This document shows, one piece after another, positions 14,178-33,480 of a stretch of DNA of 48,667 nt. Within the stretch, counting starts at the first letter, position 1; each line of letters opens with the position of its first letter. The position numbers and the translations under genes were made by a program. Origin of the DNA: Ectothiorhodospiraceae bacterium WFHF3C12 (GTDB lineage Bacteria > Pseudomonadota > Gammaproteobacteria > Nitrococcales > Nitrococcaceae); the NCBI GenBank assembly GCA_013519935.1, contig JACDUA010000030.1, positions 1 through 48,667 of the forward strand. The letters run 5' to 3'. A model generated the notes under the pieces. The model searched no databases. It worked only from the letters and a program-made list of their open reading frames with translations, and was not told where the DNA came from.

Positions 14178-14510
14178 GGGCGTTCGCTCCCCCGGATCGA
14201 CGGCGCGCGGCACGCCTGATCGCCGCGGCACGCCGGTACTATGGCCGATCGCGGCGAAAAACAACACACCGGACGCCGGAGGGCGCGTCCGTGGCGCTGT
14301 CGCGCCGTGGACGCGAGACGTCATTGTCCGGTTGTTCCCGTGGTGAGACGATCCGGGGTTTTCGTGCAGAGTTGGACGGTGTTATAAGAGTTGCGCGTTG
14401 TAGTCACATGGCCCGTGGGCTAATGTGAAGCGCGTGGCTCGGCCCGCACCCGGGCCGCCGCAGATAACAACGAGTCCAAAATAATTGCGATTTCGGAGGG
14501 AAGGACAGTC
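14178..14510. promoter_or_regulatory. Gap between kef-like gene and first binding-protein gene
   Basis: No gene in this 333-base divergent region. A long interrupted hairpin is at 14284-14315 (7 bp plus 5 bp around a symmetric GT/GT internal loop, TGTC loop). TATAAG at 14383-14388 is a possible -10 with no good -35. TCACAT/ATGTGA arms at 14404-14428 enclose a second inner dyad. CGGCCCG-CACC-CGGGCCG at 14440-14457 is a perfect stem in the probable leader of the 14511 gene. CGGAGGGAAGGA just before 14511 is the ribosome-binding site. Confidence 0.45.
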
Positions 14511-15770
14511 ATGTCTCGCAAATCATTCATCAAGAAGACCCTGATTGCCGGCGCGGTGGCGGTGGCCACTTCCCTGGCGTCGGTCACGGCGAGCGCCCAG
14601 GACACCATCCGCGTGGCCTTCATCGAGGGCCTCTCCGGCCCGTTCGCCAACGCCGGTGACGCGGCCCTGAAGAACTTCGTCTACGTCAGCGACCTGATCA
14701 ACGAGCAGGGCGGCATCAACGGGAAGAAGATCGAAATCATCCCGTACGACAACAAGTCCAGCCCCCAGGAGTCCCTGCAGATCCTGCAGAAGGTCGCCGA
14801 CCAGGGCATCCAGTACATCACCCAGGGTAACGGTTCCCATGTCGCGGGCGCGCTGATCCAGGGCGTGAACAAGCACAACAACCGCAACCCCGACAGCCCG
14901 ATCGTCTTCCTGAACTACGCGGCGGTGAACCCGGACTTCACCAACGAGGACTGCAGCTTCTGGCACTTCCGCTTCGACGCCCACAGCGGCATGAAGCTCC
15001 AGGCCATCACCGACTACATGGCCAAGCAGGAGGACGTTAAGAAGGTCTTCCTGATCAACCAGGACTATTCCCACGGCCAGGCGGTCTCCCGCATCGCCAA
15101 GGAGATGCTCGCGCGCAAGCGCCCGGACGTGGAGATCGTCGGTGACGTGCTGCACCCCATCGGCAAGGTCAAGGACTTCTCGCCGTACGTCTCCCAGATC
15201 AAGGCCTCCGGCGCCGATACGGTGATCACCGGTAACTGGGGCAACGACCTGTCGCTGTTGATCAAGGCGGCCAACGACGCCGGCCTGGAAGTGAATTTCC
15301 AGACCTACTACGGCGGCGTCACGGGCACCCCGACCGCCATCGGCGAGGCGGGCGCCGGCCGCGTGAAGATGGTGGCGGAGTTCCAGGAGAACCTGCCCAC
15401 CCGGTTCAACGCCACCGAGTACGAGAAGATCTCCCGGGGCCTGAAGGATCGCTATCCGGAGATCGAGTTCCTGGGCCGGGCCCATACGCAGATGAACCTG
15501 CTGGCGATGGCCATGGAGAAGGCGGGCACCACCGAGCCGGTGGCGGTCGCGAAGGCGCTGGAAGGGCTGGAGATGGATCATCCCTTCGGTCAGGTGAAGA
15601 TGCGCTCCATCGACCACCAGGTCCTGCAGCCGCTGTTCATCTCCACGTTCACCAAGGACTACCTGGCCCACGACACCGAGGACACCGGTCTGGGCTGGAA
15701 GATGGACGTGAAGATCGAGTCGGAAGAGACGGCCGTTCCGACGACCTGCGAGATGAAGCGGCCCAACTGA
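14511..15770 (+). CDS. ABC importer periplasmic binding protein 1 (branched-chain amino acid/amide type)
   Basis: A 419-residue type I periplasmic binding protein of the LivK-like HAAT family. Residues 1-29 are a signal peptide ending SVTASAQ. The mature part begins DTIRVAFIEGLSGPFAN and alternates beta-alpha units with NYAAVNPDFTNEDCSFWHFR and HPIGKVKDFSPYVSQI. One cysteine in NEDCSF and one in PTTCEM could form a disulfide. The next gene (16168) encodes a protein of the same length and very similar sequence. Both precede livHMGF, so they probably deliver ligands to one transporter. A strong terminator follows, so this gene can be transcribed alone. The ligand is unknown; branched-chain amino acids, amides or urea-like compounds are family options. 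Confidence 0.93.
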   Translation: MSRKSFIKKTLIAGAVAVATSLASVTASAQDTIRVAFIEGLSGPFANAGDAALKNFVYVSDLINEQGGINGKKIEIIPYDNKSSPQESLQILQKVADQGIQYITQGNGSHVAGALIQGVNKHNNRNPDSPIVFLNYAAVNPDFTNEDCSFWHFRFDAHSGMKLQAITDYMAKQEDVKKVFLINQDYSHGQAVSRIAKEMLARKRPDVEIVGDVLHPIGKVKDFSPYVSQIKASGADTVITGNWGNDLSLLIKAANDAGLEVNFQTYYGGVTGTPTAIGEAGAGRVKMVAEFQENLPTRFNATEYEKISRGLKDRYPEIEFLGRAHTQMNLLAMAMEKAGTTEPVAVAKALEGLEMDHPFGQVKMRSIDHQVLQPLFISTFTKDYLAHDTEDTGLGWKMDVKIESEETAVPTTCEMKRPN

Positions 15771-16167
15771 TCCGCAGCTGAAACCGCAGAGAGCAGCAAC
15801 CGGCGCCGCCCCTTGGGCGACGCCGGTTTTTTTGTTTCATGGACCGCTATGCGGAACTCCTTCGGCGATGTTGCGCTGCAGAAAAATTTCCCCGGGTCAT
15901 TCGCTCTGCTGCAGTGCATCAATCATGTTTTTCCGTACTCGAGCGTACGGCTCAGCGCGGACGTTTCAGGGCTTCCGTTGCGGAATTTCCCGGCTTTTTG
16001 CCTGTTTCCCATCGAGGCTAATAATCCGGCACCGGACCCCCCGTTGTAGTGAAGCGTCGAGTCGGATAATGTTCGGGATACGCAGCCGGCGACAGCCGTC
16101 TGCAAGGGTGCGGCGAGTCCCATCGCCGCCATCGAACTTGCCGGTTTCGGAGGAGAGGAACCCCGTC
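15771..16167. promoter_or_regulatory. Terminator-containing gap between the two binding-protein genes
   Basis: This 397-base gap has no convincing gene. It starts with the terminator at 15799-15837. A dyad CCGTAC/GTACGG is at 15933-15950. TAATAAT at 16019-16025 preceded by TTGCCT at 15998-16003 is a weak promoter candidate (short spacing). The AT content is higher than the surrounding coding sequence, as expected for a promoter plus leader. GGAGGAGAGGAA at about 16149-16160 is the ribosome-binding site of the next gene. Confidence 0.4.
15799..15837 (+). terminator. Rho-independent terminator after binding protein 1
   Basis: ACCGGCGCCGCC and GGCGACGCCGGT pair over 12 bases with one mismatch around a CCTTG loop, followed by seven T (TTTTTTTGTTT). 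It sits 28 bases after the stop codon of the 14511 gene and should separate it from the rest of the transporter genes. Confidence 0.9.
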
Positions 16168-17427
16168 ATGTTCCGCAGAGCAGTACTAAAAAAACTTTCT
16201 GCCATCGCCGCCGGTGTCACGCTGACCGCGGCCGCATCCACGACCGTGTTCGCCCAGGACACCATCCGGGTCGCGTACATTGACCCGCTGTCCGGGCCGT
16301 TCGCCAACGTGGGCGACGCCGGTGCCAAGCACTTCCTGTATGTCGCCGAAATGATCAACGAGAACGGCGGCATCATGGGCAAGGACATCGAGATCATTCC
16401 GTTCGACAACAAGTCCAGCCCGCAGGAGTCCCTGCAGATCCTGCAGAAGGTCGCCGACCAGGGCATCCAGTACATCACCCAGGGTAACGGGTCCCACGTG
16501 GCCGGCGCGCTGATCCAGGGCGTCGAGAAGCACAATGCCCGGAACCCCGACAACCAGATCCTGTTCCTCAACTACGCCGCGGTGAACCCGGACTTCACCA
16601 ACGAGGACTGCAGCTTCTGGCACTTCCGCTTCGACGCCAACGCGGCCATGAAGCTCCAGGCCATCACGGACGTGATCAAGGAGAACCCGGAGACCAAGAA
16701 GCTGTTCCTGATCAACCAGGACTACTCTCATGGTCAGGCGGTCTCGCGGATCACCAAGAACTTCCTGGCCCGCAAGCGCCCGGACATCGAGATCGTCGGC
16801 GACGTGCTTCACCCCATCGGCAAGGTGAAGGACTTCTCGCCGTACATCTCCCAGATCCAGTCCTCCGGCGCTGATACCGTGGTCACCGGTAACTGGGGCA
16901 ACGACCTCAGCCTGCTGGTCAAGGCGGGTTCGGATGCCGGTCTGGATGTCACGTACCACACCTTCTACGCGGGCGGTCTCGGTACGCCGACGGCCATCGG
17001 CGAGTCCGGTGTCGGCAAGGTGACCCAGGTGACGGAGTGGTTCGAGAACCTGGCGGTGCGCGAGAACGCCAAGGAGCTCGAGGACATCCTGGTGGAGTTC
17101 GAGGAGCGTTACCCGGAGATCGAGTTCTACTATCTGCGGGTCCTGCGCCAGATGCAGATGCTGAAGATGGCCGTGGAAGAAGCGGGGAGCACGAATCCCA
17201 AGGACGTGGCCTACGCCATGGAGGGGATGAACATGGACAGCCCGTTCGGGCCGGTGACCATGCGCACCCTGGACCACCAGGTGATCCAGCCGCTCTACAT
17301 CTCGGTGTTCTCCGATGATTACCTCAAGTACGACACCGAGGATACCGGGTTCGGCTGGAAGTACGTGGCCAAGATCAACGCCGAGGACACCGCCGTTCCC
17401 AGCACCTGCGAGATGCAGCGGCCGTAA
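16168..17427 (+). CDS. ABC importer periplasmic binding protein 2, paralogue of the preceding gene
   Basis: 419 residues, the same length as the 14511 product. A signal peptide ends near ASTTVFAQ (residue 29) and the mature part starts DTIRVAYIDPLSGPFAN. From residue about 60 to 250 the two proteins are nearly identical (for example NKSSPQESLQILQKVADQ, and CSFWHFRFDA). They diverge mainly between residues 255 and 350, which in this fold lies in the second half of the protein, before converging again in FGWK and TCEMQRP. DNA identity in the conserved blocks is also high, which implies recent duplication or gene conversion. ATG 16168 follows GGAGGAGAGGAA. It leads into livH, so this copy is the one in cis with the transporter. 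Confidence 0.93.
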   Translation: MFRRAVLKKLSAIAAGVTLTAAASTTVFAQDTIRVAYIDPLSGPFANVGDAGAKHFLYVAEMINENGGIMGKDIEIIPFDNKSSPQESLQILQKVADQGIQYITQGNGSHVAGALIQGVEKHNARNPDNQILFLNYAAVNPDFTNEDCSFWHFRFDANAAMKLQAITDVIKENPETKKLFLINQDYSHGQAVSRITKNFLARKRPDIEIVGDVLHPIGKVKDFSPYISQIQSSGADTVVTGNWGNDLSLLVKAGSDAGLDVTYHTFYAGGLGTPTAIGESGVGKVTQVTEWFENLAVRENAKELEDILVEFEERYPEIEFYYLRVLRQMQMLKMAVEEAGSTNPKDVAYAMEGMNMDSPFGPVTMRTLDHQVIQPLYISVFSDDYLKYDTEDTGFGWKYVAKINAEDTAVPSTCEMQRP

Positions 17428-17436
17428 GACCGCTGA

Positions 17437-17511
17437 GGCCCGCGCCGTCCGGCGCGGGCCCACGCCAGAGCACCCGCCCCCGCCAGCTGCGCCGTGCAGC
17501 GGCCGGGGCGG
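17437..17511 (+). other. Two large hairpins between binding protein 2 and livH
   Basis: GGCCCGCGCC-GTCC-GGCGCGGGCC (17437-17460) is a perfect 10-bp stem. A second stem of about 16 pairs with one mismatch and one bulged base spans 17474-17511, closed by CCGCCCC/GGGGCGG and with a five-base loop. Neither has a T-run. Stems at this place in binding-protein operons are known to protect the upstream mRNA and lower expression of downstream permease genes; that role is inferred here. Confidence 0.6.
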
Positions 17512-17558: not shown

Positions 17559-18509
17559 ATGCTGGAATCACTGATCTTTACCATCTTCAACGGCGTGCTC
17601 TACGGCATGCTGTTGTTCATGCTGGCCAGCGGCCTGACGCTGATATTCGGTATGATGGGCGTGCTGAACTTCGCCCACGCCAGCTTCTACATGCTGGGCG
17701 CCTACTTCGCCTATCAGGTCAGCGTCTTCGCCGGTTTCTGGGCGGCGCTGTTCCTGGCGCCACTCGGTGTCGCGCTGATTGGCGCGCTGACCGAACGCTA
17801 CGGCTTGCGTCAGGTCCACCAGCACGGCCACGTGGCGGAGCTGCTGTTCACGTTCGGCCTGGTTTACGTCATCGAGGAAGTGGTTCACTTGGTCTGGGGG
17901 CGTACCCCGGTCAACTACCAGGTGCCCGAGGCCCTCGATTTCACCCTGTTCACGCTGTTCACCACCGACTTCCCGGCCTATCGGGCGTTCATGCTGGGCG
18001 TGGCGATATTCATGTTCGTGGGTATCTTCCTGCTACTGACGAAGACCCGTATCGGTCAGGTCGTGCAGGCGTCGTTGTCCCATCCCGACATGGTCGGCGC
18101 GCTGGGCCACAACGTGCCGCGGGTGTTCACCCTGGTGTTCGCCTTTGGTTGCGCCCTGGCGGGCCTTGCCGGCGTCATCGCCGGAAACTATTTCATCACG
18201 GAGCCGGGCATGGCCTGGAACATGGGGCCGATCGTCTTCGTGGTGGTGGTCTTCGGCGGATTGGGCTCGCTCGGAGGTGCCCTGGTCGGCTCGTTGATCA
18301 TCGGCCTGGCGCAGACCTTCGCCGTACAGATGACCTTCTCCATCGCCAGTGTCCTGGCCGACATGGGGCTGGCGATCTCCGAAGATGCCTTCCTCAGTGG
18401 CTTCTGGTTCCTGGAGCTCTCGCGTATTGGCCCCATGCTGCCGTACCTGCTGCTGGTGCTGATGCTGATTTTCCGCCCGCGCGGACTCATGGGCACGCGT
18501 GCGGACTGA
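17559..18509 (+). CDS. livH: ABC importer permease LivH
   Basis: A 316-residue inner-membrane permease of the LivH family, one of two membrane subunits of a branched-chain-amino-acid-type importer. GMLLFMLASGLTLIFGMMGV followed by LNFAHASFYMLGAYFAY is the family-specific first helix pair. About eight helices follow, and the coupling-helix region GHNVPRVFTLVFAFGCALAG is conserved. A GGGGA precedes the ATG at 11 bases. It is 131 bases downstream of binding protein 2 and 16 bases upstream of livM. The ending (FRPRGLMGTRAD) is family-typical. Confidence 0.94.
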   Translation: MLESLIFTIFNGVLYGMLLFMLASGLTLIFGMMGVLNFAHASFYMLGAYFAYQVSVFAGFWAALFLAPLGVALIGALTERYGLRQVHQHGHVAELLFTFGLVYVIEEVVHLVWGRTPVNYQVPEALDFTLFTLFTTDFPAYRAFMLGVAIFMFVGIFLLLTKTRIGQVVQASLSHPDMVGALGHNVPRVFTLVFAFGCALAGLAGVIAGNYFITEPGMAWNMGPIVFVVVVFGGLGSLGGALVGSLIIGLAQTFAVQMTFSIASVLADMGLAISEDAFLSGFWFLELSRIGPMLPYLLLVLMLIFRPRGLMGTRAD

Positions 18510-18525
18510 TGGGGGCCCGTGAATC

Positions 18526-19839
18526 ATGACCGAGGAAACGATGCAACAAACTGCTAAATCACAGCCGGGCGCGGCCGTCGGGTTCCTGCGCCGGTACTCG
18601 CTATGGATCGCCGCGGCGGTCGTTGTGCTCGTACTGCCCTATATCTTCACCTCGGGCAGTTCCATCTCCATGATGAGCCAGATGGGCGTCATGGTGGTAT
18701 TCGCCCTGTCCTACAACATGCTGCTGGGCCAGGGGGGCATGCTCTCCTTTGGTCACGCGGTGTATTTCGGCCTGGGCGGGTTTTTCACGCTGCACGCCAT
18801 CAACGGTGTCAACAACGGGGCCTGGAGCTTCCCGCTGGAGCTCATGCCGTTGGTTGGCGGCCTCGGTGGGCTGGCCTTCGGCATCATTTTCGGCTGGATC
18901 TCCACCAAGCGGGCGGGCGTGACCTTCGCCCTCATTTCCCTGGGCATCGGTGAGCTGGTCGCGGCCAGTGCGCAGATGTTCACGGACTTCTTCGGCGGCG
19001 AGGGCGGTATCTCCACGAACCGGGTAACGGCCGCCAACGAGGCGTCGATTTTCGGCTTCAATTATGGCCCGCAGATCGATATCTACTACCTGGTGGTCGT
19101 ATGGGCCTTTCTCGCCACCATCCTGATTTACCTGCTGACCAAGACGCCGCTGGGGCGCATGGCCAACGCCGTGCGGGATAACCCGGAGCGGGCCCAGTTC
19201 GTCGGCTACAACCCGCGCATGGTGCGTTTCGCGCAGTTCTCGCTGTCCGGCTTCTTCGCGGGTCTCGCCGGTGGGTTGTTCGCCATCATGTTCGAGATCC
19301 TGACGGCCGAGAACCTGGGCGCCATCCAGTCCGGGTCGGTGTTGCTGATGACCTACATCGGCGGTATCGGTATCTTCTTCGGGCCGATCATCGGTGCCAT
19401 CCTGATCACCTGGCTGCAGACATCGCTTAGCGCCTTCAGTGAAGCCTGGGTGCTGTATTTCGGGTTGATGTTCGTGTTCATGGTGATGTACGCGCCCTTC
19501 GGCATCTCGGGCATCATCATGCAGCACTATCTGCCCTACAAGACCGGCCTGTTGAAGCGGCTGCTGCCCGCGTATGGCATCGCGGTCATCCCCACGCTGA
19601 TCCTGCTCGTCGGCGCGGTGAGCATCGTCGAGATGGGCTATCACATCTCCACCTCCTACCTGCCCTCGCGGCCTATGGATCTGTTCTGGGTGTCCGTCGT
19701 GGCGACGAACGCTTGGTCCTGGATCATCGCCGGCGCGATCTTCGTGGCGGGCGTTTTCGCCTGCCGCTGGAGTTACCGCAAGGTGGGCCGGGCCTGGGAT
19801 GACGTGAACGAAACCTTGGTAGAGAGGGGGCTGGCATGA
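18526..19839 (+). CDS. livM: ABC importer permease LivM with C-terminal membrane extension
   Basis: The second permease subunit, 437 residues if the first ATG is used. A second in-frame ATG at 18541, preceded by GAGGAAACG, has the better ribosome-binding site and may be the real start (432 residues). The core shows GQGGMLSFGHAVYFGLGGFF, the family motif after helix 2, and GRMANAVRDNPERAQFVGYN, the cytoplasmic coupling loop. After the usual end of the permease near residue 335, about 100 further residues contain two more hydrophobic stretches (IAVIPTLILLVGAVSIVEMG and ATNAWSWIIAGAIFVAGVFA). I do not know their role. The gene overlaps livG by four bases (ATGA). Confidence 0.92.
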   Translation: MTEETMQQTAKSQPGAAVGFLRRYSLWIAAAVVVLVLPYIFTSGSSISMMSQMGVMVVFALSYNMLLGQGGMLSFGHAVYFGLGGFFTLHAINGVNNGAWSFPLELMPLVGGLGGLAFGIIFGWISTKRAGVTFALISLGIGELVAASAQMFTDFFGGEGGISTNRVTAANEASIFGFNYGPQIDIYYLVVVWAFLATILIYLLTKTPLGRMANAVRDNPERAQFVGYNPRMVRFAQFSLSGFFAGLAGGLFAIMFEILTAENLGAIQSGSVLLMTYIGGIGIFFGPIIGAILITWLQTSLSAFSEAWVLYFGLMFVFMVMYAPFGISGIIMQHYLPYKTGLLKRLLPAYGIAVIPTLILLVGAVSIVEMGYHISTSYLPSRPMDLFWVSVVATNAWSWIIAGAIFVAGVFACRWSYRKVGRAWDDVNETLVERGLA

Positions 19840-20594
19840 GTCACGACGCACTGACGCTAACCAACGTACACAAGCGCTTCGGCCCGGCGCACATCATCCG
19901 TGGGGTGGATCTGAACATCCCCGAGGGTGAGCGCCATGCGATCATCGGGCCCAACGGCGCGGGCAAGTCCACGCTGTTCAACCTGATCAGCGGACGGTTC
20001 GATATCAGCGACGGCGAGATTCGCCTGCATGGCGAGGCGATCAACGGTCTGCCGCCACACCTGATCAACCGCAAGAAGCTCAGCCGGAGCTTCCAGATCA
20101 CCAACCTGTTCCAGCGCATGACCGTGTTCGAGAACCTGCGCTGCGCCCTGCTGTGGGCCCACGGTTACGGGTATTCGTTCTGGAAGATGGTCGAGAGCCA
20201 GAAGGCCCTGAACGAGGAAGCCGAGCAGCTGCTGGAGAAGATTCACCTTCAGGACAAGCGCAATACCATGGCTTCGCTGCTGTCCTACGCCGATCAGCGT
20301 GCCCTCGAGATCGGCACCACCATCGCCGGCGGCGCCAACGTCATCCTCCTGGACGAGCCCACCGCGGGCATGAGTCATACCGAGACGGACTATGCGGTGC
20401 AACTCATCCGCGAGGTGACCGAGGACAAGACGCTGATCATGGTGGAGCACGACATGGGGGTGGTCTTCGACATCGCCGACCGCATTAGCGTGCTGGTCTA
20501 CGGCGAGATCATCGCCACCGATGTACCCGAAAAGATTCGCGGCAATGCCAGGGTGCAAGAGGCCTATCTCGGGACCGGGGAGGACGCGGCGTAA
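19836..20594 (+). CDS. livG: ABC importer ATPase LivG
   Basis: A 252-residue nucleotide-binding subunit. Walker A is GPNGAGKST near residue 40, the Q-loop region is RSFQITNLFQRMTVFENLRC, the signature region reads LLSYADQRALEIG, Walker B is VILLDEPTAGMS and the switch histidine is in MVEHDMGVVF. It has the family's extended helical subdomain. The signature LSYADQR departs from the classic LSGGQ, a change common in LivG proteins (LSYGDQR/LPYGLQR type). Start and stop overlap livM and livF, so expression is translationally coupled. Confidence 0.95.
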   Translation: MSHDALTLTNVHKRFGPAHIIRGVDLNIPEGERHAIIGPNGAGKSTLFNLISGRFDISDGEIRLHGEAINGLPPHLINRKKLSRSFQITNLFQRMTVFENLRCALLWAHGYGYSFWKMVESQKALNEEAEQLLEKIHLQDKRNTMASLLSYADQRALEIGTTIAGGANVILLDEPTAGMSHTETDYAVQLIREVTEDKTLIMVEHDMGVVFDIADRISVLVYGEIIATDVPEKIRGNARVQEAYLGTGEDAA

Positions 20595-21289
20595 TGCTTG
20601 AAGTCAAGGGTCTTCACGCCTTCTATGGCAAGAGTCATATTCTGCACGGCGTGGACATGAACATCGGCAAGGGCGAGATCGTCTCGCTGCTGGGCCGCAA
20701 CGGCGTGGGCCGCACGACCACCTGCAAGTCCATCATGGGCCTGGTGGAACCGGTCGGGAACATCACCTACAACGGCGAGAAAATCAGCGGCATGGAGCCG
20801 CATCAGATCGCCCATCGCGGTATCGGCTACGTCCCCGAGGACCGGCTGATATTCCCGGGCCTGACCACCCGTCAGAACCTGGAGCTGGGCATGAAAAAGA
20901 GCGGCCAGGAAGGCCGCTGGAAGCTGGACGACGCGTACAAGCTCTTTCCGCGTCTGGAGGAGCGGGCCGAAACGCCCGCCGAGGTGCTCTCCGGCGGCGA
21001 GCAGCAGATGCTGACCATGTGCCGGACGCTGATGGGCGATCCCGAGCTGATCATGATCGACGAGCCCACCGAGGGGCTGGCGCCCCAGATCGTCAAGCAG
21101 GTGGGTGAGTTCCTCGAACAGATCGCCTCCAGCGGCATGTCGGTGCTGCTCATCGAGCAGAAGCTCAGCATCGCCCTGAAGGTCTCCCAGCGCCTTTACG
21201 TCATGGGCCACGGCGAGATCGTCTTCGAGGGCACGCCGAGCGATCTGGAAGCCAACGAGAGCGTCCGCAAGGAGTGGCTCGAGGTCTGA
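20594..21289 (+). CDS. livF: ABC importer ATPase LivF with Arg in place of the Walker A Lys
   Basis: A 231-residue nucleotide-binding subunit, pairing with LivG. The phosphate loop reads GRNGVGRTTT: Arg40 replaces the lysine that normally contacts the ATP phosphates. All other motifs are intact: signature LSGGEQQ, Walker B LIMIDEPTEGLAP and a switch segment VLLIEQKLS (Gln-Lys in place of the His, which is normal for LivF). The start codon overlaps the livG stop by one base (TAATG). A perfect terminator closes the operon. The substitution may be tolerated by a degenerate site in an asymmetric ATPase pair; I believe some relatives share it, but an alignment is needed. Confidence 0.94.
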   Translation: MLEVKGLHAFYGKSHILHGVDMNIGKGEIVSLLGRNGVGRTTTCKSIMGLVEPVGNITYNGEKISGMEPHQIAHRGIGYVPEDRLIFPGLTTRQNLELGMKKSGQEGRWKLDDAYKLFPRLEERAETPAEVLSGGEQQMLTMCRTLMGDPELIMIDEPTEGLAPQIVKQVGEFLEQIASSGMSVLLIEQKLSIALKVSQRLYVMGHGEIVFEGTPSDLEANESVRKEWLEV

Positions 21290-21539: not shown

Positions 21540-23522
21540 ATGAAAATGAAGCTTGCGGGGATCCGCTCCGGCGCCTTCGGCATCCGCGCCAAGGTGCTGG
21601 CGGCGCCGTTGATCATACTGGTCGCCTTTGTCGGCGTGGGGGTGTTCACCATCTCCCATTTTCGCGGTCTGGAGCACCAGGTCGGCACCGTCTCCGACGA
21701 GGTGGCGCCCGAGTCGGCCATGGTCAACGACCTCATCGCCGCGCTCAACGACATGCGCATGGCCGTCTCCGGCTACATGTCCACACGCGCCCAGAGTCAG
21801 GCGGAACAGTTCAACGAGGCCGACAGCCGTTTCCAGGCCCTGCTGGCCAAGGCCGACGAGCGCATGTCGGACGTGCAGCGCCAGTCCATGATCGACGAGA
21901 TCCAGACCACGCTGGAGCGCTACGAGAGCGTGGTGAGCGACGAGCTGTTGCCCACCGGTCAGCGGGTTACCAAGCTCGTCGACCAGCTGGAGGAAACCGG
22001 CAAGAGCCTGGAGCGCAGCCTCAAGGGCGTCGGCGAGACGGCCCGCTACTCCGCGAATAACGAGCTCTCCGCCGAGGCCGAGGCCGCGGCCCGTGACGCC
22101 ATGAGCGCGCGCATGGGCGCACAGCAGTATCTGCTCTCGCCCTCGCCCATCAACAAGAGCAACACCATGGTGGCCGTGGCGACCTTGGAGACCCGCGTGT
22201 CCAGTATCGCCGAGGAGATGGGCGATACCCGGGAGCTGAAGGCCGCACAGAAAGCCCTCGAGAGTTACAGGAGCGATTTCAAGGCCCTCACCGAGGCGCT
22301 ACCGGCCCTTCGTGCCGCAAAGACCGAGCAACTGGACCAGATCGGCCCGCAGATCGCAGGTCAGGCTCGTGAGCTGCAGGACGCGACCTACGGCATGCTG
22401 GAAACCCTGGCCGCCGACGCCAGCGGGGCCTCGGCCACCGCGATTCGCGTGCAGATCATCATCATGGTGGTGGCCGCCATCGGTGGCGTCGCCCTGGCGC
22501 TGCTGATCAGCCGTACCGTCGTGCGGCCGGTGAAACAGGCGAGCGACGAGATCGGCGCCCTGCTGGCCGACATCAAGGCGGGGCACGCGGACCTGAACCA
22601 GCGCCTGACCGTGACCAGCCGCGACGAGGTGGGCTCGTTCATTGGCGCGGTGAACGAGTTCCTGGACACCCTCCAGGAGGTGATCGAGTCCATTTCCGGC
22701 GCCACCCAGCGCCTGGCCCAGTCCGCCACCAGCCTGTCCCAGGTAACGGATCGCACCCGTCAGGGCTCGGAAGAACAGCGCGGCGAGATCGAACAGGTGG
22801 CCACGGCCATGAACGAGATGGCCGCCACCGCCGAGGAGATCGCCCGCAACACGGCGGACACGGCCTCGGCGGCGGAGCAGTCCACCAAGGCCACCGACAA
22901 GGGCCGGGGCGTGGTCAACCAGACCGTCGACGCCATCGACAGTCTCGCCGTGCAGGTGGAACAGGGCGCCGCCACCGTGCTGAAGCTCCAGGAGGAGTCG
23001 GATGCCATCGGCAAGGTCCTGGACGTGATCCGGGAGGTGGCCGAGCAGACCAACCTGCTCGCCCTGAACGCGGCGATCGAGGCCTCCCGGGCCGGCGACG
23101 CCGGCCGCGGTTTTGCCGTCGTGGCCGACGAGGTGCGCAACCTGGCGAGCCGGGTGCAGGATTCAACCCAGGAGATCGAGCAGATCATCGACCGTCTTCA
23201 GGCAGGCGCCCGCGAGGCGGCCAAGACGATGAACGAGTCCCAGGAATCGGCCAAGCGCACCGTGGAACGCGCTTCCGAGGCGGGGGACGCCTTGTCGATG
23301 ATCGCCGAGGGCATCAACCGCATCAACGATATGGCCACCCAGATCGCCAATGCCGCCGAGGAACAGACGGCGACGGCCGAGAACATCAACCAGAGCGTGC
23401 TCAAGGCCAACAAGATCGTCGACGACGTCAGCAAGGACATCCAGACCGTCAGCTCCAGCAGCACCGAGCTCAACCAGATGAGCGACGAGCTGCGTCAGCT
23501 CGTGTCCCGGTTCCGCGCCTGA
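21540..23522 (+). CDS. Methyl-accepting chemotaxis protein
   Basis: A 660-residue chemoreceptor that controls CheA through CheW. A membrane helix at about residues 16-42 is followed by a mostly helical periplasmic sensor of some 250 residues, a second helix near 302-327 ([20 protein letters not shown]), a HAMP linker and a long coiled-coil signalling domain. The kinase-contact tip is visible as [20 protein letters not shown] and [12 protein letters not shown]. The sensor size and helical character fit a four-helix or bimodular helical (HBM-like) domain, but no ligand motif can be read. No CheR-docking pentapeptide is present at the C terminus, which ends [10 protein letters not shown]. It is monocistronic: a FliA promoter lies in front and a large inverted repeat behind. 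Confidence 0.95.
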
Positions 23523-23981: not shown

Positions 23982-26900
23982 CTACCAGGTATCGATCAAC
24001 GGCCGCTTCTTGCCTTCGCGCCGCGCCGGCGCGGGCATGGACTCCAGGCCCCGGACCAGCCAGCGGCGGGTTTCCATGGGGTCGATGACGCCGTCGATCT
24101 CCAGGTGCGAGGCCATGTTGATGGCCTTGCCGTGCTCGTAGGACTCGGCGACCATCCGCTGGAACGTCGCCTCCCGCTCCTCCGGGTCCTCGATGGCGGC
24201 GAGCTCCTTGCGGTAGCCCAGCCGCACCGCCCCCTCCAGGCCCATGGCGCCGAATTCGCCGGTGGGCCAGGCGACGATGAACACCGGCGCCTCGAAGGTT
24301 CCGCCGGCCATGGCCTGGGCGCCCAGCCCGTAGCCCTTGCGCAGCACCACGGTGAACAACGGGACGTCCACGTTCGCCCCGGCGATGAACATCCGCCCGG
24401 CGTGACGCACCAGGGCCGTGCGCTCGGCGTCCGGCCCCACCATGATGCCCGGCGTGTCGCACAGGCTCAGGATGGGGATATCGAAGGCATCGCACAGCTG
24501 CATGAACCGCGCGGCCTTGTCGGCCCCGTCTGCGTCGATGGCCCCGCCCAGGTGACCCGGGTTGTTGGCGATCAGCCCCAGCGGTCGGCCTTCGACGCGG
24601 ATGAAGGCGGTGATCATTCCCGGGGCGAACTCACGCCGCAGCTCCATTACCGAGCCGGTGTCGGCCAGGATCTCGATCAGTGAGCGGATGTCGTAGGCGC
24701 GCAGGCGATTCTCGGGGATGGCCCGGCGCAGCCAGCGCTGGTCCTCGCAGTCCCAGTCGGCGACGGTCCCCTGGAAATAGCCGAGCAGCTGACGGGTCGC
24801 GGCCACCGCCTCGGCCTCGTCCGCCACCACCAGGTCCACCACGCCGTTGGGCGCCTGCATGGACATGGGGCCCACCTGCTCAGGCGTGTACACGCCCAGG
24901 CCGCCGCCCTCGATCATGGCCGGCCCGCCCATGCCCAGCGTGGCGTTCTCCGTGGCCACGACGATGTCCGCGCAGCCGGCCAGGGCGGCGTTGCCGGCGA
25001 AGCAACGTCCCGAGACCACGGTGATACGCGGGACGAGACCGCTGAGCCGGGCGTACTGGCGGAACGTGGGCACGTCCAGCCCGGCCACGACCGTCGCGTC
25101 GGTATCCCCGGGGCGGCCGCCGCCGCCCTCGGCGAAAACCACCAGCGGCAGTCGACGCTCCTCGGCCAGGTTCAGCATGCGGTCGGTCTTCTTGTGGTTC
25201 ATCGCCCCCTGGGTGCCGGCGAAGACGGTGTAATCGTAGGACATGACCATGCAGCGGGCCGCCTCGTCGCCGAACACCCCGCGGTTGATGGTCGCCATGC
25301 CGCCCACCAGGCCGTCGGCCGGCGACATCCGGATCAGCTCGTCGAGCTCGCGCCGGCGGCGCTGAGCGGCCAGGGCCAGGGCCCCGTATTCGATGAAGCT
25401 GCCGGGGTCGCAGAGATCGTCGATGTTTTCCCGGGCCATTCGCTGGCCGCGCTGGTGACGCTTGGCCACGGCCTCCGGGCGGTTCTCGTCGAGCCCCACG
25501 GCGTGGCGTTCCATCACCTCGGCCAGATCCGGGCGGACGGCGTCGAGGTCGATGGTCTCGGTGGACTCCGACCCGCTGTCGCCGACTTCCGCCTCTTCAA
25601 GAAACAGCAGAGGCGCCCCTTCGAAGACGTTGTCCTCCGCGGCGGCGCCGAACTGCCGGACGATGCCGCTAACCGGCGCGGTGACCACGTGCTCCATCTT
25701 CATGGCGTCGAGCAGCGCGACCTGCGCCCCGGCGCGCACCGCCTCGCCCTCGGCCACTGACAGCTCCAGGACCCGACCCTGCATCGGCGCCGCCACGGCG
25801 ACAGTCCCGGGCGGCTGCCCGGTCGCGGCTTGATCCGTAACCGGCGCCGCCGCTCCTTCGTCGCCGCTGAAATAAAGCGGGCGATGAGCATACGCCGCGC
25901 TGTCCACCAGATCCGCGGCATGTTCGTCCAGGAACCGCGTATGGATGCGATTCGCCACGAGCTCCGGGTGCCGCAGCAGGCTCTGCAGTATGCCGATATT
26001 GGTCTCGACGCCCTCGATGCGGAACTCGCACAAAGCCCGATAGGCCTTCTCCAGCACGGCTTCGTAGCCGCCGGAGCGGCTGTGGGCGATCACCTTGGCG
26101 AGCAGCGAATCGAAGCCGGGATGGGTCCGGTAGCCGCTGTAGCCGAAGGTGTCCACCCGCAGCCCGGGGCCGGTGGGCGGCTCGAAGGCACGCAGCACGC
26201 CGCCGGTGGGCTTGGCCGTGCCGTCGGGCTGAACGGCTTCCATGTTGACCCGCAGCTGCACGGCGAATCCCCGGGGCGGGGGAGGCTCCGGCCGATCGAG
26301 GCCCAGCTCGGCGAGGCCCGCCCCGCCGGCGATGCGCAGCTGGGTCTGGACCAGGTCGACGTCCGTCACCTCCTCGGTCACCGTGTGCTCGACCTGTAGC
26401 CGCGGGTTGGCCTCGATGAACGCGAACGCCGGCGCGCCGCCGTCGGCGCGGACCAGGAATTCGAACGTCCCCAGTCCGTCGTAGCCGGCGGAGCGCGCCA
26501 GGGCCACGGCGGCGTCGCAGATACGCCGGCGAAGCTCGGCCGACAGCGACGGACTGGGCGCGATCTCCAGCAACTTCTGGTTGCGCCGCTGGATGGTGCA
26601 TTCCCGCTCCCAGAGGTGGTTGACGTGCCCGGCCGCGTCGCCCACCACCTGTACCTCCACGTGACGGGCGCGGGGAATCAGCGCCTCCACGTAAAGCCGG
26701 CCGTCGCCGAAAGCGGATGCGGCCTCGGAGGCGCAGCGTTCGAAGGCCGCCTCCAGTTCCGCCTCCGTGTGTACCGCCCGCATACCCCGGCCGCCGCCCC
26801 CGGCCAGGGCCTTGACCATGATGCCGTGGGCGCCGGCCTCGCTGGCGAGGAACTCATGCGCCCCGGCGAGCGAGGTCTCGTCGTCCGTGCCGGGGATGAC

Positions 26901-27287
26901 GGGGATATCCAGGGCGCGGGCCCGTTCCAGTGCCCGGGCTTTGTCGCCGAATAGCGCCAGGGCGCGGTCGTTGGGACCGACGAATGTCAGGCCCTGCTCG
27001 CGACAGGCCCGTGCGAAGTCGACGCTTTCGCTGAGAAACCCGTAGCCGGGATGCACGGCGTCGCAGCCCGTCTCCCGGGCCGCCTCCACAAGGGCGCCGG
27101 CATCCAGGTACGCGGCCACGCCGCGTCCCGGAAGCGGGCAGCTGTCATCGGTCACCAGGACATGCCTGCTATCGGCGTCGTCCTCGGCGTAGACTGACAC
27201 GGTAGCGATGCCGAGCTCGGCGGCGGCACGGGCAATACGGATGGCGATTTCGCCACGATTGGCGATCAGCAGTCTGGTCAGGGACAT
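23982..27287 (-). CDS. Single-chain biotin-dependent acyl-CoA carboxylase
   Basis: A 1101-residue fusion of all three functions of an acyl-CoA carboxylase, which adds carbonate-derived CO2 to an acyl-CoA using ATP and biotin. Residues 1-455 are biotin carboxylase (IANRGEIAIRIARAA, ATP-grasp loop AGGGGRGM at 162-169, EANPRLQVEH near 292). A linker leads to the biotin carrier with DAMKMEH, biotin on Lys530. Residues from about 590 on are both carboxyltransferase halves (GTQGAMNHKKTDRM, then PGHLGGAID, LCDTPGIMVGPDAE and MAGGTFEAPVF). This order matches the single-chain long-chain acyl-CoA carboxylases described in mycobacteria. I chose the ATG at 27287, where the canonical N terminus starts. 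It is divergent from an SDR/acetoacetyl-CoA synthetase operon. The acyl substrate is unknown. Confidence 0.93.
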   Translation of the reverse strand: MSLTRLLIANRGEIAIRIARAAAELGIATVSVYAEDDADSRHVLVTDDSCPLPGRGVAAYLDAGALVEAARETGCDAVHPGYGFLSESVDFARACREQGLTFVGPNDRALALFGDKARALERARALDIPVIPGTDDETSLAGAHEFLASEAGAHGIMVKALAGGGGRGMRAVHTEAELEAAFERCASEAASAFGDGRLYVEALIPRARHVEVQVVGDAAGHVNHLWERECTIQRRNQKLLEIAPSPSLSAELRRRICDAAVALARSAGYDGLGTFEFLVRADGGAPAFAFIEANPRLQVEHTVTEEVTDVDLVQTQLRIAGGAGLAELGLDRPEPPPPRGFAVQLRVNMEAVQPDGTAKPTGGVLRAFEPPTGPGLRVDTFGYSGYRTHPGFDSLLAKVIAHSRSGGYEAVLEKAYRALCEFRIEGVETNIGILQSLLRHPELVANRIHTRFLDEHAADLVDSAAYAHRPLYFSGDEGAAAPVTDQAATGQPPGTVAVAAPMQGRVLELSVAEGEAVRAGAQVALLDAMKMEHVVTAPVSGIVRQFGAAAEDNVFEGAPLLFLEEAEVGDSGSESTETIDLDAVRPDLAEVMERHAVGLDENRPEAVAKRHQRGQRMARENIDDLCDPGSFIEYGALALAAQRRRRELDELIRMSPADGLVGGMATINRGVFGDEAARCMVMSYDYTVFAGTQGAMNHKKTDRMLNLAEERRLPLVVFAEGGGGRPGDTDATVVAGLDVPTFRQYARLSGLVPRITVVSGRCFAGNAALAGCADIVVATENATLGMGGPAMIEGGGLGVYTPEQVGPMSMQAPNGVVDLVVADEAEAVAATRQLLGYFQGTVADWDCEDQRWLRRAIPENRLRAYDIRSLIEILADTGSVMELRREFAPGMITAFIRVEGRPLGLIANNPGHLGGAIDADGADKAARFMQLCDAFDIPILSLCDTPGIMVGPDAERTALVRHAGRMFIAGANVDVPLFTVVLRKGYGLGAQAMAGGTFEAPVFIVAWPTGEFGAMGLEGAVRLGYRKELAAIEDPEEREATFQRMVAESYEHGKAINMASHLEIDGVIDPMETRRWLVRGLESMPAPARREGKKRPLIDTW

Positions 27288-27310
27288 GAAACGGCCTTTC
27301 TGGCGGCGCT

Positions 27311-27348
27311 GTGCCGATGATGTCCGCTTGGCGGAACGATGTCGGCAC
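27311..27348. promoter_or_regulatory. Nested dyad in the carboxylase/SDR divergent gap
   Basis: GTGCCGA (27311-27317) and TCGGCAC (27342-27348) bracket CCGC-TTG-GCGG (27324-27334), so two inverted repeats share nearly one centre. It lies 24 bases upstream of the carboxylase start and in the 233-base divergent gap, so it could control both directions. No TetR or other regulator gene is adjacent. Confidence 0.45.
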
Positions 27349-27520
27349 GGCCGGTGGTTATCAGTTTTAATCTGGGACCGGATCGGCCCGGGCCCAGTAA
27401 AAGCCATGGCGGGGCCGCACGCAACACCAGAACGAACACGCCGGATGGCTCAGTGGGTAATCGTCGCCGCGGCTGTGCGTATGCATCCGGCATTTCAGCG
27501 GTATTGCTGGAGGGGCAGTT

Positions 27521-28279
27521 ATGGATCTGGGTATCTCGGGTAAGCGGGCCGTCATCACCGGCGGCAGCAAGGGTATCGGCCGGGCCATCGCGCTGTCGCT
27601 GGCGGCGGAGGGCGCGGATATCGCCCTGTGCGCGCGCGGTGAGGAGGCGCTGGAGCGAACCCGGGCGGACGTGGAGCGTGCCGGGGCACGTTGCTTCGCC
27701 CAGGCCTGCGACGTCGGCGACGAGGCCGCCTACGGCGCCTTTCTGGATGCGGCCCGGGATGACTTGGGCGGCGTGGACATATTCGTCAGCAACGTCTCGG
27801 CCCTGGGCGCCGGAGACAGCCTGGAGGCCTGGCAGGCCAATATCAGCCTGGACCTGATGGGGGCGGTGCACGGTACGAACCGGGTGCTGCCCTGGATGGC
27901 GTCGGCCGGTGGCGGCAGCGTCGTGCTGATCTCGTCCATCGCCGGCATCGAGGCCGGCTCTACGCCGGCGCCCTACGCGGCCACCAAGTCGGCGCTGATC
28001 AGCCTGTCCAAGACGCTGGCCATCGCTCACGCGGCAGAAGGGATTCGGGTCAACGTCGTCGCGCCGGGCTCCATCGAGTTCGAGGGCGGCGTCTGGGACC
28101 GTGCCCGCCAGCACAACCCGGAGCGCTACGAGCGGACCCTTGCCCGGATTCCGGAGGGACGCATGGGCCGACCCGAGGAGGTGGCCGATGCCGTCACTTT
28201 CCTGGTCTCCGGCCGGGCCAGCTGGGTCAACGGCGCCTGCCTGGTGGTGGACGGCGCGCAGCACAAAGCGATCTTTTGA
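27521..28279 (+). CDS. SDR-family oxidoreductase (FabG-like)
   Basis: A 252-residue short-chain dehydrogenase. The cofactor motif TGGSKGIG is at residues 13-20, and the catalytic Ser139, Tyr152 and Lys156 are in place (LISSI, PYAATK). The usual NAG motif after strand 4 is NVS here (residues 91-93), a mild deviation. The C terminus (GRASWVNGACLVVDGAQHKAIF) is typical. GGAGGGGCAG precedes the ATG. It is first in an apparent operon with the acetoacetyl-CoA synthetase (58-base gap) and perhaps the thioesterase. The context suggests a 3-hydroxyacyl/3-oxoacyl or 3-hydroxybutyrate-type substrate, which is inference only. Confidence 0.88.
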   Translation: MDLGISGKRAVITGGSKGIGRAIALSLAAEGADIALCARGEEALERTRADVERAGARCFAQACDVGDEAAYGAFLDAARDDLGGVDIFVSNVSALGAGDSLEAWQANISLDLMGAVHGTNRVLPWMASAGGGSVVLISSIAGIEAGSTPAPYAATKSALISLSKTLAIAHAAEGIRVNVVAPGSIEFEGGVWDRARQHNPERYERTLARIPEGRMGRPEEVADAVTFLVSGRASWVNGACLVVDGAQHKAIF

Positions 28280-28285
28280 TAATCA

Positions 28286-28301
28286 CTTGAGCGGTCTCAA
28301 G
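28286..28301 (+). other. Short perfect dyad between SDR and synthetase genes
   Basis: CTTGAG-CGGT-CTCAAG lies in the 58-base gap, six bases after the SDR stop. No T-run follows. It could be an intercistronic stem or a regulator half-site pair. Confidence 0.35.
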
Positions 28302-28337
28302 AGCCGTAGTGGAATTCCCGTCGAGGAGGAACGATCC

Positions 28338-30320
28338 GTGACACAGAGCGAACCGCAACCGATGTGGACGCCCAGCCGGGAGCGCATCGAGCAGAGCAAC
28401 CTCTGGGACTACATGGGCTGGCTCAAGCGCCACAAGGGACTGGATTTCGGCGACTACGAATCCCTCTGGCAGTGGTCCGTGGACAACCTCGAAGACTTCT
28501 GGGCTTCCATCTGGGAGTATTTCGACATCCCGCATTCCAAGGGCTACTCGCGGGTGCTGGACAGCCAACGCATGCCCGGTGCCAAGTGGTTCGAGGGCGC
28601 GGAGCTGAACCTGGCCGAGCAGGTGTTCCGCTTTCACCACGGCGCCGGCGCCGACCGGCCCGCGATCATCTCCCGGTCCGAACTGCGGCCCCTGCAGGAG
28701 ATGTCCTGGCGCGAGCTGCGCCGGCAGGTGGCCGCGGTGGCCCAGGGCCTGCGGGAGATGGGCGTGGAGCGGGGCGACCGGGTGGTCGCCTATCTGCCCA
28801 ACGTGCCGGAGACCGTGGTGGCCTTTCTGGCCACCGCCAGCCTCGGGGCCATCTGGTCCAGCTGTTCCCCGGACATGGGCACGCGCAGCGTGGTGGACCG
28901 TTTCCAGCAGATCGACCCGAAGGTGCTGATCGCCGCCGACGGCTACCGCTACGGCGGCAAGGACTACGACCGCCGCGAGGTGGTCGAGGGACTGAGGCAG
29001 GACCTGCCGACCCTTGAGCACCTGGTGCTGTTGCCCTACCTGGACGAGGGGGCGCGTCTGCCGGATGCCCATCTGTGGTCCGAGCTGCTCCAGCACGAGG
29101 CGGAAATGCGCTTCGAGCAGGTGCCCTTCGATCACCCGCTCTGGGTTGTTTATTCGTCGGGCACCACCGGCATGCCCAAGCCCATCGTCCACGGCCAGGG
29201 CGGGACCCTGATCGAGGGTCTCAAGGGCCATTCCCTGCAGCTGGATCTGGGACCGGAGGACCGCTTCATGTGGTTCACCACCACCGGCTGGATCATGTGG
29301 AACTCCCAGGTTACGGGGCTGTTCGTGGGCTCGACCATCTGCATCTACGACGGCAACCCCGGTCATCCGGACCTGGGGTTGCTGTGGCGCTTTGCCGAGG
29401 AAACCGGCATGACCTTCTTCGGTGCCGGCGCGGCCTACTTCGCCAACTGCAAGAAGGCCGGTATTCGTCCCGCCGAGATCGCCGACGTCGGCCGCATCCG
29501 CGCGGTGGGCTCCACGGGTTCGCCCCTGTCGGAAGAGGATCACTACTGGATCGCCGAGCAGCTCGGGGACGTGCATATCGCGGCCATCAGCGGGGGTACG
29601 GACATTGCGGCGGCCTTCGTCGGCGCCAGTCCGATCAAGCCGCTGATCGCCGGGGAGATGCAGGCCCGGGGGCTGGGCATTGCCGTCCATGCCTTCGACG
29701 ATGCCGGCAACAAGCTCGACGACGAGGTGGGCGAGCTGGTGGTGACCGAGCCCATGCCCTCCATGCCTCTGTACTTCTGGAACGACGAGAACGGCCAGCG
29801 GCTGCACGAGAGCTATTTCGACACCTACCCGGGGCTGTGGCGTCACGGTGACTGGATCCGCATCACGCCCCGGGGTGGCGCGGTGATCTACGGCCGCTCC
29901 GATACCACCATCAACCGCCACGGCATCCGCATGGGGACCAGCGAAATCTACCGGGTGGTGGAGGAGTTCGACGAGGTGCTGGATAGCCTGGTGGTGGACC
30001 TGGAGTACCTGGGCCGGGAGTCCTACATGCCGCTGTTCGTCGTGCTGCGTGAGGGGCTCGAACTGGACGACGACCTCGCCGGACGCATCAAGGACGCCAT
30101 CCGCAAGAACCTCTCGGCGCGGCACGCGCCCAACGAGATCATAGCGGTGGAGGAGATCCCACGCACGCTCACCGGCAAGAAGATGGAGCTGCCCATCAAG
30201 AAGCTCCTGCTGGGCGTGCCCCTGGAGAAAGCCGCCAGTGCCGACGCCATGGCCAACCCTCACACGCTGGATTTCTTCGTCGACTTCGCCGAGCGCCGGG
30301 GGACCAGCCACCCGGCCTGA
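28338..30320 (+). CDS. Acetoacetyl-CoA synthetase
   Basis: A 660-residue AMP-forming ligase of the acetoacetate-CoA ligase family (typical length 650-670), making acetoacetyl-CoA from acetoacetate, ATP and CoA. An N-terminal extension typical of the family begins near MWTPSRERIEQSNLWDYM and includes WFEGAELNLAEQVFR. Adenylation motifs are YSSGTTGMPKPIVH (about residue 272), FMWFTTTGWIMWN, TDIAAAF and a C-terminal domain ending in PRTLTGKKMELPIKKLL, with the catalytic lysine in TGKK. I chose GTG 28338 behind GAGGAGGAACG. The neighbouring SDR, acyl-CoA carboxylase and thioesterase suggest a ketone-body, leucine-type or PHB-derived route into acetoacetyl-CoA. Confidence 0.92.
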   Translation: MTQSEPQPMWTPSRERIEQSNLWDYMGWLKRHKGLDFGDYESLWQWSVDNLEDFWASIWEYFDIPHSKGYSRVLDSQRMPGAKWFEGAELNLAEQVFRFHHGAGADRPAIISRSELRPLQEMSWRELRRQVAAVAQGLREMGVERGDRVVAYLPNVPETVVAFLATASLGAIWSSCSPDMGTRSVVDRFQQIDPKVLIAADGYRYGGKDYDRREVVEGLRQDLPTLEHLVLLPYLDEGARLPDAHLWSELLQHEAEMRFEQVPFDHPLWVVYSSGTTGMPKPIVHGQGGTLIEGLKGHSLQLDLGPEDRFMWFTTTGWIMWNSQVTGLFVGSTICIYDGNPGHPDLGLLWRFAEETGMTFFGAGAAYFANCKKAGIRPAEIADVGRIRAVGSTGSPLSEEDHYWIAEQLGDVHIAAISGGTDIAAAFVGASPIKPLIAGEMQARGLGIAVHAFDDAGNKLDDEVGELVVTEPMPSMPLYFWNDENGQRLHESYFDTYPGLWRHGDWIRITPRGGAVIYGRSDTTINRHGIRMGTSEIYRVVEEFDEVLDSLVVDLEYLGRESYMPLFVVLREGLELDDDLAGRIKDAIRKNLSARHAPNEIIAVEEIPRTLTGKKMELPIKKLLLGVPLEKAASADAMANPHTLDFFVDFAERRGTSHPA

Positions 30321-31972: not shown

Positions 31973-33238
31973 CTAGGAGCTCTTCTTCTCGTTGCCCTTG
32001 CCGGCCTGCTTGCCGTCGCCGTCGCCGCTGCCCTTGCCCTTGATGTATGAGCAGTTGCCGGCCTCCATGGACTTGAAGGCCTTCTCGCCGGGGATCACCG
32101 AGGCCACCTTGTAATAGTCGCCGGGCTGCTCGACCTCGTTGGGGTCCTTCACCTCGACCAGGTACATGTCGTGGACCATGCGCCCGTCGCGGCGCAGCTT
32201 GCCATTCTGCGTGAAGATATCCTTGACGGGCATGTCGCGCATCTTGGCGATGACCTGCTTGGTCTCGTCCGTGCCCGTCGCTTCGATGGCCTTGAGGTAA
32301 TGCTTGACGGCCGAATAGACGCCCGCGGAGAACATGGTCGCTTCGGTGCCGGCGCGGCGCTTGAGGCGCTCGTTCCAGGCGCGGGTCTCTTCGTTCATGC
32401 TCCAGACCCAGCCGGTAACGAATCGCACGCCGCCGGAGACGTAGAGGCCGACGTTGCGGATGACGTCATGCGTCATGAGCAGGCCCACCAGCTGCTGCTC
32501 GCCGCTGGAGGTGATGCCCAGCTCCCAGGCCTGGCGGATGGTGGCCTGGGTGTCGTCGCCGGCGTTGGCCAGGGCGATGACATCGGCGCCGGAGTTCATG
32601 GCCTCCAGCAGCTGGGAGGTCATGTTGGTGCCCTTGAACTTGTGCAGCGCGGAGCCGAGGACTTCGCCGCCGGCTTCCTTGACGGCGGCCGAGGCATCGG
32701 CCTGCAGGACCTTGCCGAAGGTATAGTCGACGGTGACGAAAAACCACTTCTTGCCGCCGTTGTCGACGATGGTCTTCGCCGAGCCGGCCGCCAGGGCGTG
32801 GGTATCGTAGGTCCAGTGCACCCCCACCGGCGAGCAGTACTTCCCGGTGAGGATGGAGGAGGCGGACCCGGTGTGGATTGCCAGGGTGTTCGTCTTGGCG
32901 GCGTAGCCCTGGATCGGCACTGCGACGTTGGTGCCCACCATGTCCAGGAAGGCGTCGACGTTGTATTGCTCCTTGAGCTCCTTGGCGTGTTTCATGCCCG
33001 TTTCCGCGTCCAGCTTGTGGTCGCGGGTGTAGAGCACGATCTTTTTGCCGTTGACCTCGCCGCCGAAGTCCTCGATGGCCATCTCCGCGGCGATCTCCGC
33101 CTGCTGGCCGATATCCTGGTAGACGCTGGTGAAATCGGAGATCAGGCCGATGCGCACCTCGTCGTCGGAGACCTGGGCCTGCGCGCACAACGGCGCGGCC
33201 GCCCCCAGTGTCAGCAATGCAGAAAGGATTCGCTTCAT
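31973..33238 (-). CDS. Orphan ABC periplasmic binding protein (LivK-like)
   Basis: A 421-residue type I periplasmic binding protein. Residues 1-22 form a signal peptide (ALLTLGAAAPLCAQAQ), then VRIGLISDFTSVYQDIGQQ starts the first lobe. HWTYDTHALAAG, DYTFGKVLQAD, and NSGADVIALANAGDDT are typical of the LivK-like family. It is not close in sequence to the two binding proteins at 14511-17427. No permease or ATPase genes are next to it, so it must use a transporter elsewhere or have a sensing role. It ends in a charged low-complexity tail of about 20 residues rich in Gly, Lys and Asp after CSYIKGKG. GGGGGAGAGA precedes the ATG at 33238. Confidence 0.92.
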   Translation of the reverse strand: MKRILSALLTLGAAAPLCAQAQVSDDEVRIGLISDFTSVYQDIGQQAEIAAEMAIEDFGGEVNGKKIVLYTRDHKLDAETGMKHAKELKEQYNVDAFLDMVGTNVAVPIQGYAAKTNTLAIHTGSASSILTGKYCSPVGVHWTYDTHALAAGSAKTIVDNGGKKWFFVTVDYTFGKVLQADASAAVKEAGGEVLGSALHKFKGTNMTSQLLEAMNSGADVIALANAGDDTQATIRQAWELGITSSGEQQLVGLLMTHDVIRNVGLYVSGGVRFVTGWVWSMNEETRAWNERLKRRAGTEATMFSAGVYSAVKHYLKAIEATGTDETKQVIAKMRDMPVKDIFTQNGKLRRDGRMVHDMYLVEVKDPNEVEQPGDYYKVASVIPGEKAFKSMEAGNCSYIKGKGSGDGDGKQAGKGNEKKSS

Positions 33239-33480
33239 TCTCTCCCCCTGGACCCTCAGTAATTGCAAGTCGAATCGCTGTGCCGGCCTGGCAGCGCCGG
33301 CGCCGGATTCGTTTTCGGCGCCGCGCGGCCCGGGCTGGCCAGCATCGGCGCGCGCGGGTGCGCTGGCGCCGACAACCCCGAGTTCGAAACTAAACGGGAT
33401 TTTTCAATTTTGCCAGTTCTTTGCGGCATATTGTGAAGGAGTTCTCGCGGGGTCACGGGAACTGCGGGGCAACGTTCGCG

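Follow-up and report, generated by a model that had tools for sequence, protein, structure and literature searches.

Tandem paralogous binding proteins beside a LIV-type importer of probable organic acid specificity

The window analysed here is a stretch of 48,667 nucleotides from Ectothiorhodospiraceae bacterium WFHF3C12 (contig JACDUA010000030.1, forward strand), on which two genes for solute-binding proteins, A and B, stand in tandem ahead of genes for a LIV-type importer (Table 1). Both open reading frames are present at full length, as the sequence-only reading had described, and the gene order bears out its statement that B leads into livHMGF (17559-21289). The terminator that it assigned to A was likewise recovered, with a predicted stability of -24.5 kcal/mol (z -4.0) that none of 200 shuffled sequences equalled; this terminator is missing from the output of a simple consensus terminator scan. 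The open reading frame listing contains a longer, 531-residue frame from 15832 that comprises B plus an upstream extension. We place the start of B at the ATG at 16168, where, as read from the sequence, a GGAGGAG ribosome-binding site lies upstream and the signal peptide opens. In the gap between B and livH, a strong hairpin that lacks a T run may lower permease expression. A chemoreceptor gene with HAMP and MCPsignal domains (21540-23522) follows on the same strand, 250 bp past livF, and may couple the ligand of the importer to chemotaxis. A further LIV-type binding protein gene (Peripla_BP_6) lies on the minus strand at 31973-33268, and its product shares about 25% identity with B across the aligned portion.

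Table 1. Positions of genes and other features in the window
Feature	Position	Strand	Basis or remark
Promoter-like element upstream of A, CGTTGTAGT-N16-TAATGT (TTGTAG-17-TAATGT)	14396..14426	+	common to B and C103
SBP_A, type I solute-binding protein, 419 aa	14511..15770	+	open reading frame; Peripla_BP_6 243.5 bits
Variable segment of A, residues 255-350	15273..15560	+	46/96 columns differ from B
Intrinsic terminator of A, stem 15798-15828 plus T run	15798..15836	+	RNA fold
Palindrome CCGTACTCGAGCGTACGG upstream of B, possible operator	15933..15950		perfect; CCGTAC-N6-GTACGG
Promoter-like element upstream of B, CGTTGTAGT-N16-TAATGT	16042..16072	+	common to A and C103
SBP_B, type I solute-binding protein, 419 aa	16168..17427	+	Peripla_BP_6 240.7 bits; structure model; pocket columns
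Segment of B matching A residues 255-350 (B 255-351)	16930..17220	+	alignment
Strong hairpin without T run, gap between B and livH	17432..17465	+	-28.5 kcal/mol, z -4.6
livH-like permease	17559..18509	+	profile search
livM-like permease	18526..19839	+	profile search
livG-like ATPase	19836..20594	+	profile search
livF-like ATPase	20594..21289	+	profile search

The cluster has the composition of a HAAT/LIV-type importer, with type I binding proteins, two LivH/LivM-like permeases and two LivG/LivF-like ATPases encoded together. Both A and B pass the Peripla_BP_6 cut-off of 31.7 bits, and the best matches of the 17559-21289 gene products are all LIV/urea-type subunits. More specific assignments were missed throughout: A and B score 100.9 and 85.4 bits against PRK15404 (LivJ/LivK; cut-off 477 bits) and 75.9 and 70.4 bits against UrtA (492.75 bits), the livH-like permease lies under all named equivalog cut-offs (UrtB, 133.4 of 250.3 bits; LivH, 71 of 379), and the remaining Urt profiles give 107.4 of 296.2 (UrtC), 195.7 of 304.1 (UrtD) and 226.6 of 285.8 bits (UrtE). 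LIV-type importers equipped with several binding proteins have been described before.

A and B are 69% identical overall (289 of 420 alignment columns). The sequence-only reading had called them almost identical from about residue 60 to 250; this region is strongly conserved, but at about 84% identity the wording is an overstatement. The strong difference that it reported at 255-350 is real, with 52% identity in that segment. By region of A, identity amounts to 86% at 61-160, 81% at 161-250, 55% at 251-360 and 64-66% at 361-419, while the least conserved part of the pair is the signal peptide (residues 1-30, 37%). Uniform divergence along the genes had been set beforehand as the outcome that would count against the reading, and the divergence is clearly non-uniform. 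The segment also exceeds what the variability of the family columns predicts, with 45 changes observed against 32 expected (ratio 1.40, P 0.002). Among 55 pairs of 60-93% identity, four paralog pairs rank 1, 2, 4 and 5 for this rate-adjusted excess, and within the clade of A and B the observed/expected ratios of paralogs (1.29-1.41) are slightly above those of non-paralog pairs (1.06-1.27).

On the strength of the paralog ranks we first favoured selection on 255-350 specific to duplication, and dropped this reading after comparison with a control set of tandem and single-copy operons from another family, f108. There, 66 single-copy pairs have a median observed/expected ratio of 1.64 (range 0.94-2.03), above the value for A and B, and eight tandem pairs (1.63-2.24) overlap the single-copy range. 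Because single-copy relatives in f108 have the same hot spot, the hot spot is no mark of duplication: segment 255-350 is fast-evolving in general. E. coli LivJ and LivK have it too, differing at 28 of 87 columns inside 255-350 and at 41 of 252 outside, an inside/outside ratio of 1.98 compared with 2.15 for A and B. A striking hot spot between tandem paralogs can thus be ordinary, and by itself it is no evidence for selection after duplication. The f108 tandem sets come from eight genomes of three genera (L134-L140 and L128), in which two binding-protein genes stand directly before livH; a ninth case (L141) is interrupted by a contig end.

The genome encodes a small set of close paralogs, at 100 (B itself), 70, 69 and 56% identity to B, the next being 32% identical. 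Two of them are orphans with no adjacent liv genes: C103 (C103:96796-98043), 74% identical to A and 70% to B, and C158 (C158:40468-41700), 56% identical to B. The 32% relative, on C98/C100, carries its own LivH, which at 56% identity comes closest among the other LivH proteins of the genome. Identical coordinates and scores are found for the LivH and binding protein of C98 and C100, whether through duplication in the assembly or through a genuine repeat. A 38-row tree makes A and C103 sisters (100/99), with B just outside them (97/95). An AU test with 15 rows rejected both A plus B (p-AU 0.002) and B plus C103 (p-AU 0.001) as sisters, and the tandem pair is therefore older than the split between A and C103.

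A, B and C103 have a promoter-like element in common. At C103 it reads CGTTGTAGT, 16 bases, TAGTTT, in place of the TAATGT of A and B, and the distance from the TTGTAG box to the start codon is 113 (A), 124 (B) and 126 (C103) bases. The pattern CGTTGTAGTN{15,17}TWRKKT, modelled on the sites themselves, occurs in the 4.6 Mb genome at those three places, and its reversed control at none. A looser promoter pattern is uninformative by itself, since it matches nine places, A, B and C103 among them, and its reversed control 12. A search of the 300 bases upstream of C158, and of two operon-linked relatives (L037 and G193), gave no such element. The element looks like a promoter retained by the A, B and C103 copies. 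The proposal that A and B represent two regulatory modes of one transporter is weakened accordingly, as a shared element argues against separate modes at the level of the promoter; yet A alone has its own terminator and so is still a separate unit. The palindrome upstream of B offers no regulon, CCGTAC-N6-GTACGG occurring once in the genome.

Alignment of 38 subfamily rows with E. coli LivJ and LivK allowed the binding pocket to be compared column by column (LivJ numbering). We take Ser79 of LivJ to be the carboxylate-binding residue, and Glu226 and Thr102 to hold the amino group of the ligand. Ser is present at the Ser79 column in all 38 rows, whereas the Glu226 column has Tyr in 35 and no Glu or Asp in any of the 38, and the Thr102 column holds Thr in none; A and B both have Tyr and Val at these two positions. 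Around docked isoleucine, the available text of one study places Ser79, Thr102, Tyr18 and Phe276 among other residues, with polar contacts from Ser79 and Thr102 (PMC6983066). At the Tyr18 column A has Ala, B has Val and C103 has Thr, and one residue, present at the Phe276 column in the other 36 rows, is missing from A and C103. A and C103 also have His158 and Gly268 where B has Asn and Ala, and the pocket of B resembles those of the single-copy operon-linked relatives G193 and L037. Among seven rows from Burkholderiales orphans (L055, L059, L065, L099, L102, L105 and L122, of G129), column 158 holds His in six, L059 having Ser, and column 268 holds Gly in all seven. Two receptors beside one importer, as originally proposed, are thus borne out, and a pocket-lining segment inside 255-350 differs between them. 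Since A and C103 are without the Phe276-column residue, it is plausible that A and B have different ligand ranges.

Which ligands these might be is not picked out by the fold alone. The predicted structure of B (mean pLDDT 90.5, pTM 0.87) matches 7jfn (Z 50.9) and 4xfk (Z 48.8) best, with an rmsd of 2.0 over about 380 residues, while the aromatic-acid binder 4evq, the fatty-acid binder 4n03 and the amino acid binder 3ipc score Z 40, 35 and 37.6. The Brucella ovis protein 4xfk/7jfn, about 30% identical, is the closest solved relative of A and B, and the nearest solved structure for A as well. As far as the accessible part of that report goes, its cleft held acetate and nitrate and soaking with threonine gave no binding, although its authors noted that crystallisation or buffer anions may have blocked threonine (PMC11376275).

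The neighbourhoods of related operons bear on the same question. Binding protein and LivH occur together at 23 loci, 18 of them with at least 12 kb of sequence, and these were searched with six fatty-acid-degradation queries taken from five of the linked loci. At least one beta-oxidation or acyl-CoA ligase match was found at 14 of the 18 livHMGF-linked loci compared with 6 of 63 orphan loci (at least 12 kb), a contrast inflated by the origin of the queries in linked loci and by kinship among the loci, the latter also making the Fisher P of 5e-8 an overstatement; leaving out the five source loci, 9 of 13 have a match. By query, the matches in linked loci were to 3-hydroxyacyl-CoA dehydrogenase/enoyl-CoA hydratase (12), acyl-CoA ligase (8), thiolase (7), two acyl-CoA dehydrogenases (5 and 2) and enoyl-CoA hydratase (1). 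Around the operon described here, none of the six queries matched within 5511-26289; farther off in the window are an acyl-CoA carboxylase-type gene (23982-27407), a short-chain dehydrogenase (27521-28279) and an AMP-ligase (28101-30320), and an AMP-ligase adjoins the C158 orphan. With the LivJ/LivK cut-off missed, the amino-group residues replaced and beta-oxidation genes near related operons, the reading of A and B as "liv" receptors for a nitrogen source becomes doubtful. The ligand of the pump is probably an organic acid rather than the amino acids suggested by the liv labels, which would make this another case in which such labels are probably misleading.

The nearest tested precedent is found in Rhodopseudomonas palustris, where RPA3723, RPA3724 and RPA3725 are, like A and B with livHMGF, clustered binding proteins with one HAAT transporter. 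In the available part of the published account, this cluster adjoins the pimFABCDE beta-oxidation operon, two of its proteins have different fatty and dicarboxylic acid profiles, and R. palustris COG0683 proteins in general rarely bound Leu, Ile or Val and did bind aromatic, fatty and dicarboxylic acids (PMC3223731). The likeness is drawn from the arrangement, and, unlike RPA3723-3725, the operon in the window has no adjacent beta-oxidation operon. Paralogous binding proteins are also thought to share one membrane complex in HisJ/ArgT-HisQMP, which belongs to another transporter family with other ligands. The same applies to E. coli ArtJ/ArtI-ArtQMP, whose paralogous receptors, in the text available to us, are thought to share the ArtQMP complex (PMC6640053), again in another transporter family and with other ligands. 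Literature searches on tandem LivJ/LivK-type receptors, on HAAT transporters with fatty acids and on misannotated LIV importers near beta-oxidation genes found nothing on the A/B system, though such work may exist elsewhere.

We think it somewhat more likely than not that this is an ordinary multi-receptor importer of the hydrophobic-ligand HAAT/LIV type, of the RPA-like kind, with an organic acid as ligand. A single livHMGF would draw on a small group of binding proteins able to stand in for one another, in which B, the first gene of the transporter unit, keeps the pocket of its single-copy operon-linked relatives. A, in a separate upstream unit, and its sister C103 descend from an older duplication and have a changed pocket edge, and C158 is a fourth, more distant, orphan copy. 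All four receptors may dock on one LivHMGF; that the orphans share it is suggested by there being no other close LivH, the next, at 56% identity, having its own binding protein. The ligand would be a carboxylate without an alpha-amino group, such as a fatty, dicarboxylic or aromatic acid, and A and C103 might widen the range that is taken up. A more elaborate form of this proposal we hold as tentative at best: an expandable receptor set, in which four paralogs (the tandem pair and two orphans, three of them under a shared promoter element) feed a single LIV-type organic-acid importer, new copies leave most of the protein unchanged and vary at 255-350 as in independent tandem sets of other bacteria, and A and C103 have drifted to pocket states of unlinked Burkholderiales orphans.

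Two other accounts concern what the receptors do. A and C103 could have left the transporter to act as sensors or scavengers, for example by presenting ligand to the chemoreceptor at 21540-23522. That A forms its own transcription unit, that C103 and C158 are orphans, that an MCP gene lies so near livF and that numerous relatives in Burkholderiales stand as orphans, the flanks fetched for them containing no livH-like gene, would all suit this role. A contact with the MCP would be conjecture, however, and transport fits better, because in the eight f108 genomes both tandem copies have stayed directly ahead of livH; we regard the sensor role as unlikely. Slightly less likely still, in our judgement, is a true branched-chain amino acid system in which A and B correspond to LivJ and LivK and prefer different amino acids. 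The E. coli arrangement, livJ ... livK-livHMGF (NC_000913), is similar in that one receptor lies separately upstream and the other leads the permease operon, and the E. coli pair has a comparable divergence profile. It differs in that panZ stands between livJ and livK, and the identity of A and B to the E. coli proteins does not exceed about a quarter; the ammonium-binding pocket residues of LivJ/LivK are replaced in both, their PRK15404 scores are far from the cut-off, and the closest solved relative took acetate or nitrate rather than threonine.

The remaining account, that of the sequence-only reading, concerns how the pair arose: by recent duplication shaped by gene conversion and positive selection. 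It draws on runs of 68 and 60 identical nucleotides between A and B, on a low A-B dS at 61-105 (0.16, compared with 0.51 for A-C103 and 0.34 for B-C103), on an all-codon run test at 93-106 (P 0.03) and on the rate-adjusted excess at 255-350. Against it, the Nei-Gojobori estimates for the whole pair are dS 0.64 and dN 0.24, and the sister of A is the C103 orphan, not B; this dS, the tree and the AU test lead us to reject a recent tandem duplication. Regional trees pair A with C103 at 31-160 (76/96), 161-254 (84/81) and 255-419 (100/98), and no silent-codon run test of A and B reached significance (P 0.38, 0.25 and 0.14 with three, four and five rows), so that conversion finds little to stand on, although the low dS at 61-105 leaves room for one old, short tract. 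A silent-codon run between A and C103 at 339-358 gave P 0.001 with three rows, and with more rows the longest such run gave P 0.12 and 0.17. Nor did positive selection hold up, given a dN/dS of 0.47 (0.40/0.85) at 251-360 and single-copy f108 pairs that exceed the A/B excess at 255-350. As a whole, we consider this account very improbable.

In the 22 other genomes of the same family (23 searched, with this one as the sole representative of its genus), the best match to B is just 23% identical, whereas G193, a genome of another family, has a 68% match, pointing to a possible acquisition of the operon by transfer. At Burkholderiales loci such as L059, L062, L099 and L131, relatives of A and B without liv genes occupy a conserved orphan position, next to genes that, named from the beginnings of their sequences, are pnp-, oxidoreductase-, tpiA- and secG-like.
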